In this document: piece after piece, positions 14,283-44,223 of the stretch
How positions within the stretch are numbered: position 1 is the stretch's first letter
Layout: each line of letters starts with the position of its first letter
Translations under genes and position numbers: made by a program
Source of the DNA: Polyangium mundeleinium
GTDB taxonomy: Bacteria > Myxococcota_A > Polyangia > Polyangiales > Polyangiaceae
Direction: 5' to 3'
Assembly: GCF_028369105.1 (NCBI RefSeq)
Contig: NZ_JAQNDO010000001.1
Span: 186,001 to 250,000, forward strand
DNA length: 64,000 nucleotides
The notes under the pieces: generated by a model
The model's input: only the letters and a program-made list of their open reading frames with translations
The model's database searches: none
What the model was told of the DNA's origin: nothing

Positions 14283-16403
14283 TCAACGACTTTCGTTCTC
14301 GAAGAAATCCAAGCGGTCCAGCGCGACATGCGAATGCGCGGGCTGCGGGCCGAGGCGCAGCGTGAGCGCGACGGATCGCGCCGCGCGCGGGATCGAGAAG
14401 GCCGGGAGCGTGACGCAGGGCGGATGCGGGGCCGCGGCGGGGTCGAGCGCGTGGGTGTGCAACGTGTCTCCGTCGACGACGAGCGAGACGGTGACGGAGG
14501 CGGGGCCGAGGACGGCGAGGCGCGGCGCGACGCGGCGGCCGGCGAGGAAGGGCGCGGGGAGGGCGAGGGAGACAGCGCCGCTTTTTGTGGGATCGGCGGG
14601 CGTGACGGAGAGCCAGCGGCGCTCCGAGGCGCAGGCGTCCGTGGCCCAGGCGGGCAAGGCCCAGGCGTCTTGTTGTGCGAGCGCGGGCCAGAGGTTTTCG
14701 CCTTCGAGGGCGATCGGCGCTTGGAGATCAAACGAGTACGGGACGAGGTGCGGCGTGGAGGGGGGCGCCTCGCCGTCGGGCGGGATCGGGAAGAGGTAGC
14801 GGTACGCAGGAGGACGGCCGTGCGCCTCCCAGGCGAAGCGATCGAAGGCGTCGCCGCGATGACGGGCGATGGTTCGTTCGTTCGAGGTCCAAGGGTCGTA
14901 GGCGAGGTTGAAGCCGTGGTCGGTGTCGACGAACACGAGCGCACGTGCGGGGAGGCTCGCGAGGCGGGCCGGCTCGAACATCGGGAGGCCGGCTTCACGA
15001 TCGCGCAGCAAGGCGTGATCGAAGCCGGCGCGGAAGGCGAAGCCGAGCGGGACGAGCGCGACGAGCGCCGCGACGCGGCGTGACGCGCGGCCGAAATCTT
15101 TTCCGCGCGCGGCGAGGTGCGCGACGGCGAGCGCGGCGAGGATGTGTTCGAGCGGGAGGACGTCGGCATAGAAGCGCGCGCCGCCGCCGGGGTAGTTGCC
15201 GTCGAAGTAGAAGGGGACGTACGCGGCGATCTGGAGGGCGACGGCGATCGGGAGCAGGCGCGCGCGCGGGAGGCGCGCGGCGAGGATCGCGCCGAAAAGG
15301 ACGAGGAGCGTGAAGGGCTCGGCGTTGCCGGCGTCGACGAGGTGCTGCTTGAGGCGGCGAAGCGTGGTCGCGGCAGCGGCGTAAGCACCGTAGCCGTGCG
15401 GGAGGTTGTGCTGAACGAAGTCGCCGTGCTCGCCGAGGCAACCGATCGAGGCGCCGAAGCCGTACCGAAAGCAACCAGGCGGGCCGTCCGAGAGCGCGTA
15501 ATAGAGGCGCTGCGACGAGGTGAAGAGCTCCCCGGTGGCCGCGTGTTGATGGGCGAGGAGCAAGCCGAGGCCAGGGAGCGCGCCGAGGGCGAGGAGCGCG
15601 AGGGCGGTGAGGCGCGAGCTGCGGGACGCGCGTGCCGTGGCGCTGCGCGTCGTGACGACGAGGAAGGTGAGCGCGAGGAGGAGGGCGAGCGCGGAGGGAG
15701 GGCGCGTCGCGGCAAGCCAGCCTGCAAAAAAGCCTGCGCCGAGCGCGGGGAGAAGGGCGCGCTCTCCGGCTTCGAGCGCACGCACGGCCGAGAGCGCGAG
15801 GGCGAGCGCGCTCGTGACGCAGAGCGCGGCGAGGCCGTGCGACATGGTGTCGGCCGTGTGGTAGCGGAGCGCGGCGCAGAGGACGGAGAAGAGGGTCGCG
15901 AGGCGCGGGATCGCGACGCGATCGGCGGCGGGTGTGCCTTCGGGGAGGGCACGCGCGGCGAGGGCGTAGGTCGCGATCGTGAGGGTCGCGGCGAGGAGCG
16001 GGCCGACCGCGAGGGGCGCGTGGGCGAGGAAGCCGAGCGCGAGGAGCGCGGGATACCCGGGCGGAAAGAGGACGGCCGCGGTGGGCCCGTCGGGGCCATC
16101 CGTGCGCACGAGGAAGCGGCCGAGCGTGGAGGCGACGGGCTCGTCGAGCGGGAAGGCGAGGTGGCCCGCCGCGAGGGCGCGCGCTTCGAGGAAGTAACTC
16201 GTGGCGTCGATGATGCGAGGTCCGCCGCGGAGGTAGAGCGCGACGTACGCGGCGGAGAGGGCAACGGCCGTGAGGGCGGCGAGGGCGAGGAAGAGGCGGG
16301 ATTTGGTTGCAGGTCGAACGATGCGCGGGGCGAACGCGAGGGCGATCAGCGCGGCGAGGAGGGCGGCGATCTGCGCGGGGTCACGGGGGAGGCCGAAGCG
16401 CAC
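14283..16403 (-). CDS. Polytopic membrane protein, GT-C (PMT/ArnT-like) fold
   Basis: 706 residues with about 10-11 membrane helices in residues 5-420, then a periplasmic-looking C-terminal domain (about 430-706) of beta character ending VALDRLDFFENESR. A GT-C-like first loop is present (IDATSYFLEARALAAGHLAF, LFPPGYPALLALGF), matching lipid-linked-sugar glycosyltransferases such as dolichyl-phosphate mannosyltransferase or ArnT in topology. The catalytic Asp cannot be assigned with certainty. GTG start without a clear Shine-Dalgarno sequence. The 43-bp repeat array lies directly upstream. A second protein of similar architecture is at 17810-20011. Confidence 0.7.
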   Translation of the reverse strand: MRFGLPRDPAQIAALLAALIALAFAPRIVRPATKSRLFLALAALTAVALSAAYVALYLRGGPRIIDATSYFLEARALAAGHLAFPLDEPVASTLGRFLVRTDGPDGPTAAVLFPPGYPALLALGFLAHAPLAVGPLLAATLTIATYALAARALPEGTPAADRVAIPRLATLFSVLCAALRYHTADTMSHGLAALCVTSALALALSAVRALEAGERALLPALGAGFFAGWLAATRPPSALALLLALTFLVVTTRSATARASRSSRLTALALLALGALPGLGLLLAHQHAATGELFTSSQRLYYALSDGPPGCFRYGFGASIGCLGEHGDFVQHNLPHGYGAYAAAATTLRRLKQHLVDAGNAEPFTLLVLFGAILAARLPRARLLPIAVALQIAAYVPFYFDGNYPGGGARFYADVLPLEHILAALAVAHLAARGKDFGRASRRVAALVALVPLGFAFRAGFDHALLRDREAGLPMFEPARLASLPARALVFVDTDHGFNLAYDPWTSNERTIARHRGDAFDRFAWEAHGRPPAYRYLFPIPPDGEAPPSTPHLVPYSFDLQAPIALEGENLWPALAQQDAWALPAWATDACASERRWLSVTPADPTKSGAVSLALPAPFLAGRRVAPRLAVLGPASVTVSLVVDGDTLHTHALDPAAAPHPPCVTLPAFSIPRAARSVALTLRLGPQPAHSHVALDRLDFFENESR

Positions 16404-16476
16404 GGGGGGATGTCTCGGAACCAGAAGGGGAGCGAGGGGTTCGTGGAGCGAGTTTTCTCACATCCACGGGCGCGAA

Positions 16477-16820
16477 GAGGGGTCCGGGCGGGGCGGGCAG
16501 GGTCTGGCGATACGCCAAAAGCATGTCCGGGCGGGGTGGGTAGGGCCTGGCGATACGCCAAAGGCATGTGCGCGTGTCCCGGGTGCGGAGTGGCGCTGCG
16601 CCAAAGGCATGTGCGCGTGCGCCGGGTGCGGAGTGGCGCTGCGCCAAAGGCATGTGCGCGTGCGCCGGGTACGGAGTGGCGCTGCGCCAAAGGCATGTCG
16701 GCGTGTTCCGGGTGCGGAATGGCGCTGCGCCAAAGGCATGTCGGCGTGCTCCGGGTACGGAGTGGCGCTGCGCCAGAGGCATGTTCGCGTGTCCCGGGTG
16801 CGGAGTGGCGCTGCGCCAAA
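16477..16820. repeat. Eight 43-bp tandem repeats with central dyads
   Basis: Eight units, exactly 43 bp apart, each carry the dyad TGGCGnnnCGCCA, at 16505, 16548, 16591, 16634, 16677, 16720, 16763 and 16806. The spacer is CTG in six units and ATA in the first two. The dyad is followed by AAAGGCATGT in most units. The first two units differ most, the inner six are near-identical. All of the unit repeats, so there are no spacers as in CRISPR. The array fills most of the 510-bp gap between 16403 and 16914; the rest of that gap (16404-16476 and 16821-16913) shows nothing recognisable. Because 43 is not a multiple of 3, the open frames through it are not credible genes. Confidence 0.92.
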
Positions 16821-16913
16821 GCCGTCTTCGGGCGCGCCGACCGATTCATCACCCGTCGCGACGCCCATTCGCCTGGCTCCGTTCGATGCGCAGAAGGGGA
16901 GCTGTACGCGGAA

Positions 16914-17810
16914 TCAGGTCGCCCCCGCCACACACCGAAACCCATACCAAGGGTGCCGCTCGCTCGCGACGGGATGGTTGTCCGCCGGCGACTGGTTGCC
17001 CATGAGCCCGTGATCGTGCCAGGTCCCTCCCGTCACGCGGAACATCTTTTCCCGCGGACACGGGAGCTCGCCTTCCATCGAAATGCACGTGATCGGCTTC
17101 GGGTCGAACACGAACTCCGCCACGTTCCCCGCCGTATCGTAAAGCCCGAAGGGACTCCGATCCCCCGTGTAACTCGCGACCGGGCACGTGCCGAGATCCA
17201 CGGCGACCGGCGGCGCGCTGCTCGTGATCGGGGAGACCACGCCGCCCTGCGTCCCGCCCATCGCGCCGCGTTGCCAGCAATGCTCGATCTTCTCCGGCTC
17301 GTCGCGGCCCCACGGATAGGTGCGGTGCCGCTCGCCGAGCCGCTCCGATTCGCTCATGCGCGCGTCGCCGAGCGCGGCCCAGTACGCCTCGTAAATCGTC
17401 GGCAGGCGGCGGCCGCCGTTCCACTTGCAGTAGGCCTCCGCTTCGGACGGGCTCACGCAATTGATCGGGTGATCGCCGCGGCCAGGCTTGCCCCAGTTGC
17501 ACATCGGCTCGTGGAACTTCTCGACGCGGCCTTCGCCGGCAGGCACGAGACACGCCTTCGCGCCGACACACGCGGCATACCCGGAGACCGTTACCTCCGT
17601 CGCTTCGATCTGGAAGGGTTGCACCGTGACGACGGTGCGGTTCGTGGCCATCGATTCGCGGAACGAGAAGGTCGCGCCTGGGATCGAGACCAGGCGCGCG
17701 CCCCGCGGCGAGACCGCCAAGCGCCTCGCGTTCTCCGCATCCGTCCGGCCGCAGCCAGTCAGGGCGACGGCGAGCAAGAGGCCGAGCGGGATGCTCGTCA
17801 GGGATTGCAT
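16914..17810 (-). CDS. SUMF1/formylglycine-generating-enzyme-like lipoprotein
   Basis: 298 residues. Signal with lipobox ALTGC (Cys20). The body has the SUMF1 (FGE-sulfatase) fold: IEATEVTVSGYAACVGAK, then CVSPSEAEAYCKWNGGRRLP, TYPWGRDEP, YDTAGNVAEFVFDP and WYGFRCV. These are the hallmark segments of C-type-lectin-like FGE relatives. The active-site Cys pair of true FGE is not evident, so a binding or structural role is more likely than formylglycine formation. The start overlaps the stop of the upstream membrane glycosyltransferase-like gene by one base (TGATG), so they are coupled. Confidence 0.85.
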   Translation of the reverse strand: MQSLTSIPLGLLLAVALTGCGRTDAENARRLAVSPRGARLVSIPGATFSFRESMATNRTVVTVQPFQIEATEVTVSGYAACVGAKACLVPAGEGRVEKFHEPMCNWGKPGRGDHPINCVSPSEAEAYCKWNGGRRLPTIYEAYWAALGDARMSESERLGERHRTYPWGRDEPEKIEHCWQRGAMGGTQGGVVSPITSSAPPVAVDLGTCPVASYTGDRSPFGLYDTAGNVAEFVFDPKPITCISMEGELPCPREKMFRVTGGTWHDHGLMGNQSPADNHPVASERHPWYGFRCVAGAT

Positions 17811-41802: not shown

Positions 41803-44223
41803 TCAGGGCACGGCGACGATCCGACCTTCGACGGTCGGCGTGATCGTGCCGAGGGCCTGGATGTGCTCGATGAGCACCTCCGCGTGGATCTCGCGCGAGG
41901 TCCCCTGCCCGTCGAGCAGCATCGTGTAGCCGTCGCCGCCCGCGTTGAGGAAATCGGGCACCGCCAGGGTATAGGTCGTCCCGTTTGCCGCAATGGGCGT
42001 CCCATTGGCGAGGTGGATCTCCTGGATACGTGATCCCGCCGGCGCACTCGCGCTGTAGGTGAACCCGAAGCCTGAGATTTGCGGGAATCTCCCGGCCGCC
42101 GTGGGGAGCCCGCTGATTCCATTCTCCATGGCCTGCCAGAGCTGCGCCCCCGTCACCGTGCGGGTCATGATCACGTTGCCGAATGGCAGGACCGCGAGCG
42201 CGTCGCCCCGCACGATGTCGTACGGCGGGCCGGCCGCATACCCGGGTGTGAGGCGCCGGAGCATCGTGTTTGCCGGCGTATACGACGAGGGGATCGAGGT
42301 ACGCAGACCGCCGCCATTGCAGAACGCGAGCTGCGTGCCGTACTTGACGCGCATCGCGTCGGCGGCGAGGTTCCCGATCGCCACCTCGACGAGCCGCTCG
42401 ACGTTGTTGCCGCGCGGAAACACGTCCGTGGCGACGCCGATCACGGCATCGAGCTCGGCCGCGAGCTGCGCGCGATAAGGCTGGAGCATCGCCTCGACCG
42501 CGGGATCGGGCGTCACCTGGCTCTTCACGGGCGAGAGGATCGTCGCGGAGCTCTTCGCCACGAAACCATTCCACGGCACGACCGTGAGCTCGACGCGCGC
42601 GTACGTCAAACCCTTGCTGCGGTTCTCCACGACACGCGCGCCGTTGATCACTGTATTGACCTGGATGTCCGTGTGATCGCCGAGGATCACGTCGAACCCG
42701 TTCACGCCCTTCGCGAAATCGAGCAGCGGGCCCTGGCACGTCCCCGTCGCCTGGTCGCAGAGCGAGGCGCCGAGGTGCACGATCGCCACGAACACCTTCG
42801 CGCCCGCGGCCTCTGCGGCATTGCGCGCCTCCATCGCCGACGTGATGGGATTCTTGATCGTGATCGTCCCGAAGCTCCCGGGCGCCGTGCTCGCGGGCGC
42901 ATCCGGGCTCGTGATGCCGATGATCGCCACCTTCAACCCGCCCACCTCGACCATGTGATACGGCGTCGCCACGCCCGTGAGGTTTCCGTCGATGTTCGCG
43001 AGGTTCGACGTGACCCACTCGAACGTCGAGAGGTCGATCATCGATTGCAGATGCCCGACGCCGCGATCGAAATCGTGATTGCCGAACGTGTACGCGTCGA
43101 TGCCCATCAAGCTCATCGCCTTGATGGCCGGCTCCTCGTTGAAGTACGAGGCGAGGGGAGGGCTCGCGCCGATGCCGTCCCCCGCGGTGAAGACGAGCGT
43201 GTTCGGGTTCGTCGTGCGCTCCTTCTGGAAATAGGCCGAGAGCACCGAGGCGCCGCCGATTTCGACGTTGTTCACGACGAGCGGGTCGAGCTGCCCGTGC
43301 CAGTCCGAAACGCTGAGGAATTGCAGATCGACCGGCGTCGTGCTCTCGCACGTCCCGTTCGAGCAGACCTCGTCGAACTTGCACGTCGTCCCGCACGCCC
43401 CGCAATGGGCCGGGTTCGTCGCCGTATCCACGCAGAGCCCATCACACGCCACGAGCTCGGCCTGGCAGGAGAGCGCGCACATGCCGTTCGAGCAGACCTC
43501 GCCCGGAGCACACGCCTGCCCGCAAGCCCCGCAGTTGCCGAGGTCCGTCTGCAGATTGGCGCAGACCCCGCCGCAATCGGTCAGATCCACCTGACACGAG
43601 AGCGCGCACATGCCATTCGAGCAGACCTCGCCCGGAGCACACGCGAGCCCACATCCGCCGCAGTTCTCGACGTCCGTTTGCTGGTTGACGCAGGTGCCGC
43701 CGCAATCGGAGAGGCTCGCCTGGCAGGAGAGCGCACACGCGCCGTTCGAGCAGACCTCGCCCGCGGCGCAGGGATTGCCGCAGGCCCCGCAATTCGCGAG
43801 GTCCTTCGAGGTATCCACGCAGGTGCCGCTGCAATCGGAAAGGCTCGCCTGGCAGGAGAGCGCGCAGGTGCCATTCGAGCAAACCTCGCCCGCGGCGCAG
43901 GGATTGCCGCAGGCCCCGCAGTTCGCGAGGTCCTTGGAGGTGTCCACGCAGGTGCTGCCGCAGGTCGTTTGTCCAGACACGCAGTCGAGAACACACGCGC
44001 CGTCCGAGCACGTCTCGTCTGCGCTACACGTCGTCCCACATGCGCCGCAATTTTGCGCGTCCGCAGCGACGTTCACGCACGTCCCGTTGCAGGACGTCGT
44101 GCCACCGGCGCAGGCTGGTGGTGGGGCTGGATCGTCGCCGCAGGCCGCCGTCCAGAGGACGAGGAGCAAGGAGAAAAGAAGCGCCGGGAATCCCGGTCTG
44201 CGTCGGGTATCGACGGAAAGCAT
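41803..44223 (-). CDS. Lipoprotein 5'-nucleotidase / metallophosphatase with Cys-rich repeats
   Basis: 806 residues, ATG after a perfect AGGAGG. Lipobox LWTAAC. Residues ~38-290 are seven Cys-rich repeats of about 39 residues with the consensus NCGACG then AAGEVCSNG and CALSCQ. A 5'-nucleotidase domain follows: metallophosphatase motifs DWHGQL, FTAGDGIG, GNHDFD, IVHLGAS, and GDHTD where classic enzymes have GHTH. The C-terminal substrate domain includes FCNGGGLRTSIP and FGNVIMTRTVTG. Probably an extracellular phosphatase scavenging nucleotides, displayed on a Cys-repeat stalk. Convergent with the VWA gene. Confidence 0.88.
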   Translation of the reverse strand: MLSVDTRRRPGFPALLFSLLLVLWTAACGDDPAPPPACAGGTTSCNGTCVNVAADAQNCGACGTTCSADETCSDGACVLDCVSGQTTCGSTCVDTSKDLANCGACGNPCAAGEVCSNGTCALSCQASLSDCSGTCVDTSKDLANCGACGNPCAAGEVCSNGACALSCQASLSDCGGTCVNQQTDVENCGGCGLACAPGEVCSNGMCALSCQVDLTDCGGVCANLQTDLGNCGACGQACAPGEVCSNGMCALSCQAELVACDGLCVDTATNPAHCGACGTTCKFDEVCSNGTCESTTPVDLQFLSVSDWHGQLDPLVVNNVEIGGASVLSAYFQKERTTNPNTLVFTAGDGIGASPPLASYFNEEPAIKAMSLMGIDAYTFGNHDFDRGVGHLQSMIDLSTFEWVTSNLANIDGNLTGVATPYHMVEVGGLKVAIIGITSPDAPASTAPGSFGTITIKNPITSAMEARNAAEAAGAKVFVAIVHLGASLCDQATGTCQGPLLDFAKGVNGFDVILGDHTDIQVNTVINGARVVENRSKGLTYARVELTVVPWNGFVAKSSATILSPVKSQVTPDPAVEAMLQPYRAQLAAELDAVIGVATDVFPRGNNVERLVEVAIGNLAADAMRVKYGTQLAFCNGGGLRTSIPSSYTPANTMLRRLTPGYAAGPPYDIVRGDALAVLPFGNVIMTRTVTGAQLWQAMENGISGLPTAAGRFPQISGFGFTYSASAPAGSRIQEIHLANGTPIAANGTTYTLAVPDFLNAGGDGYTMLLDGQGTSREIHAEVLIEHIQALGTITPTVEGRIVAVP

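Follow-up and report, generated by a model that had tools for sequence, protein, structure and literature searches.

A dispersed family of intergenic arrays of phased 43-bp dyad units in Polyangium genomes

MITEs are small, non-coding, dispersed elements with terminal inverted repeats and a target-site duplication, and REP, BIME and REPIN sequences are built on a GTAG- or CGTC-tagged palindrome that is mobilised by RAYT. To our knowledge, a 43-bp period with one dyad per unit was otherwise known from the centromere of the F plasmid only. This centromere, sopC (parS_F), is described as a row of twelve tandem repeats of 43 bp, whose 16-bp inverted repeats are bound by ParB_F (SopB) (excerpts of PMC6238139 and PMC9178275). 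TRF analysis of the F plasmid record returned a 43-bp period with 10.7 copies and dyads 43 bp apart. The sopC array, with the dyad TGGGACCACGGTCCCA, is a single locus situated on a plasmid, downstream of sopAB.

An array of the same period was found in a stretch of 64,000 nucleotides (hereafter the window) of the 13.25-Mb genome of Polyangium mundeleinium. This phased dyad array, designated locus A, occupies positions 16482..16821 and was delimited by TRF, BLAST and aligned units; in family orientation it lies on the minus strand. TRF identified a repeat of period 43 at 16505-16821 (7.4 copies, 87% matches, 0% indels) and two further related copies at 16482-16569. A pattern search for GGCG-N3-CGCC located eight dyads, to which no strand was assigned, separated by seven intervals of exactly 43 bp each. 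Dyads 1 and 2 (16506..16516 and 16549..16559) have the core ATA, and dyads 3 to 8 (16592..16602, 16635..16645, 16678..16688, 16721..16731, 16764..16774 and 16807..16817) the core CTG; a T precedes and an A follows all eight. These results bore out the first-pass annotation of this DNA in its description of eight 43-bp units with dyads and of a core that changes from ATA to CTG. Its statement that all eight dyads present on one face of the helix holds as near-phasing, not as exactly one face: at 10.5 bp per turn, 43 bp corresponds to 4.10 turns, so that each dyad is rotated by approximately 34 degrees against its neighbour and the row of eight winds slowly round the helix. Single GGCG-N3-CGCC dyads are not rare: the window holds 24, where shuffled sequence would give 17.8, and 16 of the 24 lie outside the array; the departure from chance is the phased row, not the single dyad. 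Elsewhere in the window, at 43455-44010, TRF reported 129-bp tandem units (3.9 copies), perhaps a coding repeat.

The array at locus A is one copy of a dispersed intergenic family in Polyangium. A search for the 43-bp-period dyad in the same genome and in related Polyangiales, as proposed with the original description, uncovered a genus-wide family, present in all six Polyangium genomes examined and almost nowhere else searched. BLAST with the window array matched the same locus in three genomes (G005, 83% over 361 bp; G004, 73%; G002, 70%) and other loci in several genomes. Pairs of GGCG-N3-CGCC dyads 43 bp apart numbered 26, 27, 27, 44, 11 and 14 in the six genomes, against 0, 0, 1, 1, 0 and 0 for a reversed-pattern control; these counts include a few isolated pairs and an off-type array, L131 (three of the 26 two-dyad matches in the window's genome fall within L131 and one, at 7271493, is solitary). 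When the period was left free from 28 to 58 bp in this genome, 43 was far the commonest among the matches listed. An order-level scan allowing at most one mismatch yielded matches in 10 of 183 genomes, six of them Polyangium; the other four were G108 (one match; control four), G141 (one), G023 (one) and G169 (four, near-identical copies). Scanning GTDB returned 39 stretches, 20 from Polyangium and 19 from other organisms, and in the latter neighbouring spacers were identical at 27-32 of 32 positions except at row ends, indicating plain tandem duplications. Viral contigs contained no match to the 43-bp dyad pattern. A sequence model of 72 positions, built from 93 two-unit segments and searched with strict filters on, matched seven of 108 genomes at E 1e-4, namely the six Polyangium genomes and, with one weak match, G134. 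No description of the Polyangium arrays appeared among the records listed in searches of the open-access literature. A Phycisphaerae MAG (8 units) and three Oscillatoria genomes (3-4 units) contain palindromes resembling ACAGGCGAGACGCCTGT that recur every 43 bp; these stretches (L100, L105, L111 and L125) were picked by the 43-bp pattern and their units are near-identical.

Array anatomy was analysed in 28 arrays of this dyad type (type 1), the window included, with a parser that allowed 3 bp of drift per step and required six of the eight arm bases; L131, which has near-identical units and off-type dyads, and the remnant L141 were left out. Fourteen arrays contained eight dyads, ten contained nine, three contained ten and one contained six, so that 27 of the 28 had 8-10. 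Intervals were exactly 43 bp in 189 of 210 cases, 42 or 44 bp in 20 and double in one. The arms were perfect in 200 of 238 units, with one change in 26 and two changes, the parser's limit, in 12. In P. fumosum, locus A (L141:5966-6500) retains approximately 1.5 units, after which comes a repeat of 21 bp, readable as a protein repeat (FRKGG...).

Divergence was measured in eight of 42 ortholog pairs, picked for clear unit correspondence. Substitutions amounted to 24/536 (4.5%) in the arms, a value that is biased downward, because array detection relied on exact dyad pairs and parsing on the 6-of-8 threshold, which makes arm conservation partly ascertained, as compared to 49/201 (24.4%) in the core, 451/1876 (24.0%) in the linker and 60/268 in the TT/AA flanks. 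Only GGCG and CGCC therefore evolve slowly, and the core and outer stem drift as the linker does. This result sustained the proposal that the dyad is the most constant part of the unit and under selection, and it places that constancy in the arms. Absence of the array or free variation of the dyad, which had been named as evidence against the proposal, was not seen at most loci, as arrays were found in related species; at some loci, dyad letters have changed array-wide. Over ten pairs, the number of indel events per substitution was 49/777 in arrays versus 33/183 in 3' flanks, defined as 110 bp starting 43 bp past the last dyad (at locus B this flank still holds the element's 3' hairpins). Arrays had fewer indels per substitution than flanks in eight of these ten pairs, which are not independent, and more in two; between the window and G005, there were none in the array and six in the flank. 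The scarcity of indels is shown more weakly than dispersal, near-constant size and period, and slow arms; the firmest conclusions concern the occurrence of the family across the genus, the slow arms and the 43-bp geometry. Linkers within arrays were on average 63% alike (692 pairs; per-array range 0.48 to 0.92) and the constant part is mainly the eight arm bases, by which a CRISPR array, with its identical repeats and unrelated unique spacers, was rejected. We tentatively propose, at a little under an even chance, that this dispersed element serves as a platform of several phased sites for a putative dimeric DNA-binding protein.

A second dyad type, GGGG-N3-CCCC (type 2), was about as common as the first, with 23, 34, 17, 30, 15 and 30 pairs at 43 bp in the six genomes versus 0, 0, 0, 2, 1 and 1 in the control. 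Seventeen type-2 loci, part of those matched, were read; once seven parser rows judged spurious had been dropped from the counts, eleven had 8-10 dyads and six had 4-7. Synteny further revealed 43-bp arrays with dyads of different sequence at some loci first taken as empty, namely GGGGCCTCCCC at loci A and D in G001 and locus G in G000, TTGCACCTGCGCC at locus H in G000 and G005, and TGCACCGGCTGCA at locus F in G001. At locus H, the 43-bp period is retained and the dyad is broken.

TRF analysis of three 400-kb blocks of the window's genome, picked regardless of arrays, identified seven period-43 loci with 3.9-9.2 copies, all of them intergenic according to our own simple gene caller. No other non-triplet period between 20 and 70 with at least three copies occurred more than once in this 1.2-Mb sample, and a lag scan of the same 1.2 Mb, in which six of eight non-triplet loci were at 43, agreed with TRF. 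No direct homology could be traced between these seven arrays and type 1 or type 2, and their units were mostly unrelated to those of both types; within the seven, two pairs were related at 29 and 31 of 43 positions, and some weaker pairs passed. Two 43-bp arrays 18 kb apart, at G000:C1 8176861-8177163 and 8195028-8195314, have in common a unit containing GTTCGAACGTTCGAAC palindromes and are alike at 31 of 43 positions. A shuffling test detected a significant palindrome in two of the seven arrays, and it has little power, since it fails on the window and type-2 units too. Four successive exact 4-bp palindromes at one period were not found anywhere in the 1.2 Mb, and those arrays are thus not characterised by a strict dyad. 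No further 43-bp arrays were found in 536 kb around known arrays. In a 200-kb sample of Sorangium cellulosum So0157-2, the one non-triplet array had 15.2 near-identical copies of 43 bp, and a 200-kb sample of another genus (G024) contained no array at 43. Extrapolation, as distinct from a count, of six or seven arrays per 1.2 Mb would give approximately seventy 43-bp arrays per genome.

These unselected samples bear on the possibility that the arrays are neutral minisatellites: some replication or recombination process in these bacteria would favour tandem duplication in steps of 43 bp, as a mutational quantum, and the dyad would be incidental. The mostly unrelated units in the 1.2 Mb and the near-identical Sorangium copies are consistent with such a process. 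The approximately fivefold lower divergence of the arms than of linker and core, and a type-1 copy number that stays near 8-10, argue against it, as does locus C, where three species have retained period and unit order although the average similarity of linkers within an array is only 48-53%. On balance, a neutral origin appears unlikely. A different generalisation, somewhat less improbable but still doubtful, is that chromosomes of Polyangium, and perhaps Sorangium, carry dozens of arrays defined by geometry (approximately eight units of 43 bp) and not by sequence, the unit and often the dyad differing from array to array; these would form, on a chromosome instead of a plasmid, a class of centromere-like phased platforms with many specificities. 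This reading builds on 1.2 Mb of one genome and one Sorangium array.

Gene context was examined for associations with a particular function. Toward one side, the array at locus A points to a minus-strand gene for a predicted 706-aa protein (14283..16403, from the ORF list), hydrophobic by eye and without a Pfam match; toward the other lies a minus-strand gene call for a 298-aa lipoprotein-like protein (16914..17810) with an FGE-sulfatase domain (PF03781, E 1.5e-27). Both are given as context only. The glycosyltransferase-like character at first ascribed to the 706-aa protein was not confirmed, and a tie between array and membrane gene found no support, with other copies adjoining other genes in every orientation. 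According to our simple gene caller, 26 of the 28 type-1 arrays overlap no predicted gene and two touch a gene edge, and their nearest genes are divergent in 13 cases, tandem in 12 and convergent in 3. Pfam analysis of six window neighbours identified a tRNA synthetase, HU, FGE-sulfatase and GAF, with two proteins without a match and no partition domain of the parA/parB (sopAB) type among the six. A phmmer search with SopB as the only query (E up to 10) returned no SopB-like protein from 12,072 ORF stretches, drawn from approximately 1.26 Mb, about a tenth of the genome, and from the flanks of other arrays.

Like sopC, the Polyangium arrays thus consist of direct tandem repeats of exactly 43 bp with one dyad each, in rows of approximately ten units. 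Tandem 43-bp repetition characterises the window as well as the great majority of intervals in the 28 arrays, and the inverted repeat, perfect in most type-1 units and in GGGG-N3-CCCC form in type 2, is broken at locus H. Unlike sopC, the arrays occur in many chromosomal copies with other dyad letters and diverged linkers, and the window copy has no partition gene beside it. Since period and plan agree with sopC, while sequence, location and neighbouring genes do not, and no SopB-like protein was found in the part searched, we suggest with moderate confidence that the arrays may work like sopC and do not claim membership of that system.

Evidence for movement came from loci that are occupied in some species only. 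Four other species have an unbroken sequence at locus I where an array with three hairpins intervenes, and CGCGCC is found at both of its junctions. G000 and G002 lack the array at locus F, where G003 has other DNA; GCTAGC stands at both junctions where the array occurs. Hairpins of the form GCTCCRTTTTGGAGC end many type-2 copies as well as the type-1 copies at loci B and I, and of all other copies, the one at locus B of the same genome comes nearest to the locus I array of G002, by a small margin (0.67; next 0.65). Hairpins of a second type, equal or similar to GCTCC(A/G)TTTTGGAGC, were observed in up to three copies directly after the last dyad, at the 3' ends of most of L203-L219 and of L134, L140, L144, L148, L151, L155 and L158. 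First linkers of type-2 copies were 0.59 alike across loci (77 pairs), versus 0.50 to other linkers, which were mutually 0.66 alike; 13 of the 17 type-2 loci were used, with L203, L206, L214 and L218 left out. The first unit thus stands apart from the others, and copies appear to spread as entire arrays. By eye, the terminal sequence of the window array on the side of the 706-aa gene (16457..16485, minus strand) resembles one end of the locus F array in two other species, and that on the opposite side (16813..16839, minus strand) resembles the other end. The locus F arrays L143 and L156 have outer ends similar by eye to those of the window array, but their inner units lie in opposite orientation relative to these ends, an arrangement that an inversion of the interior between dyads would leave. 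Clustering near the origin was considered and rejected: the five first-found type-1 arrays of the window's genome lie at most 2.4 Mb from dnaA, but loci G (3.4 Mb), H (4.1 Mb) and the empty F (4.9 Mb) and most type-2 copies do not follow this pattern.

Presence or absence of whole arrays with 6-bp direct repeats at two loci, the many copies, the common 3' hairpins and the within-genome proximity at locus I could all reflect a purely selfish, non-autonomous mobile element similar to MITEs or REPINs, whose dyads would be sites for a transposase or similar protein encoded elsewhere and whose arms and size would reflect transposition instead of host function. Element ends differ between loci, however, the direct repeats could be microhomology, and orthologous copies persist across species; we regard this alternative as possible but not probable. 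Like MITEs, the arrays are small, non-coding, dispersed and present or absent with short direct repeats, but no terminal inverted repeat is consistent across loci by eye, and the body is a phased dyad array. They have in common with REP, BIME and REPIN sequences that these are short intergenic palindromes with many copies, taxon-restricted and sometimes clustered, and differ by units in one orientation, at fixed 43-bp spacing and in rows of approximately eight; no GTAG or CGTC tag is conspicuous in the consensus of the units (excerpts of PMC3733652 and PMC3116915, the tag from the former). STAR elements of staphylococci are likewise interspersed intergenic direct repeats (excerpts of PMC3532100), from which the Polyangium arrays differ in that their 43-bp geometry is fixed and the number of their units nearly constant.

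A structured RNA or single-stranded DNA hairpin array, in which dyads matter as stems, would predict covariation between the arms. When right arms were shuffled within arrays, outer-pair complementarity at offsets 6-8 gave z values of 0.1, -2.1 and 1.3 for type 1 and of 2.4 (pair 6), 1.1 and -0.3 for type 2; the value for type-2 pair 6 is in line with stems, but the other outer pairs do not covary within arrays. Pair 3 keeps its complementarity across types (226/238 C-G and 120/131 G-C) and in 32 of 34 array consensus sequences (28 C-G, 3 G-C, 1 A-T; out-of-frame row L173 excluded), which none of 2000 permutations reached. Both main types were, however, found by searching for those very arms, and the three G-C arrays have one dyad sequence in common, perhaps reflecting one old event. 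Predicted RNA folds had z values of -2.5 and -3.2, which favour a stem, but the minimum-energy fold pairs units with each other instead of forming eight separate hairpins, and Rfam yielded no match in the window at gathering thresholds. The RNA hairpin array suggested in the first-pass annotation thus remained unsupported. Little or no outer-stem covariation within units is expected of a site for a dimer on double-stranded DNA, and this was observed; as judged from sequence, the covariation pattern appears more like a dimer site than a stem. The standing of an RNA family was lowered by these results, and a stem function is considered very unlikely.

For the phased protein-binding platform proposed above, the following model is conceivable. 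Each copy is a row of approximately eight or nine direct 43-bp units with one dyad per unit, and a dimeric DNA-binding protein would occupy each dyad through two half-sites separated by a free 3-bp core. Spacing by four turns would stack the dimers into one nucleoprotein complex, in analogy to ParB_F/SopB on the twelve sopC repeats, so that the dyads, as we infer, would together constitute a protein platform. Copies may spread as whole arrays, with units within a copy homogenised by recombination and their number held near eight. Candidate benefits include chromosome anchoring, regulation and the element's own spread. A point against the model is that the dyad letters vary among the loci of one genome, where a single binding protein would lead one to expect the same letters throughout; the broken dyad at locus H, with its period retained, is another.

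On myxobacterial chromosomes, the exact 43-bp period with one dyad per unit is recurrent, with slow arms and steady spacing and with letters that change between loci. This recurrence suggests either that spacing by four turns is a widely applicable way to stack dimeric DNA-binding proteins or that platforms of this kind disperse as elements, and either reading makes the question of why sopC has a 43-bp period testable by comparison. The arrays also represent an additional repeat family in genomes that rank among the largest of bacteria.
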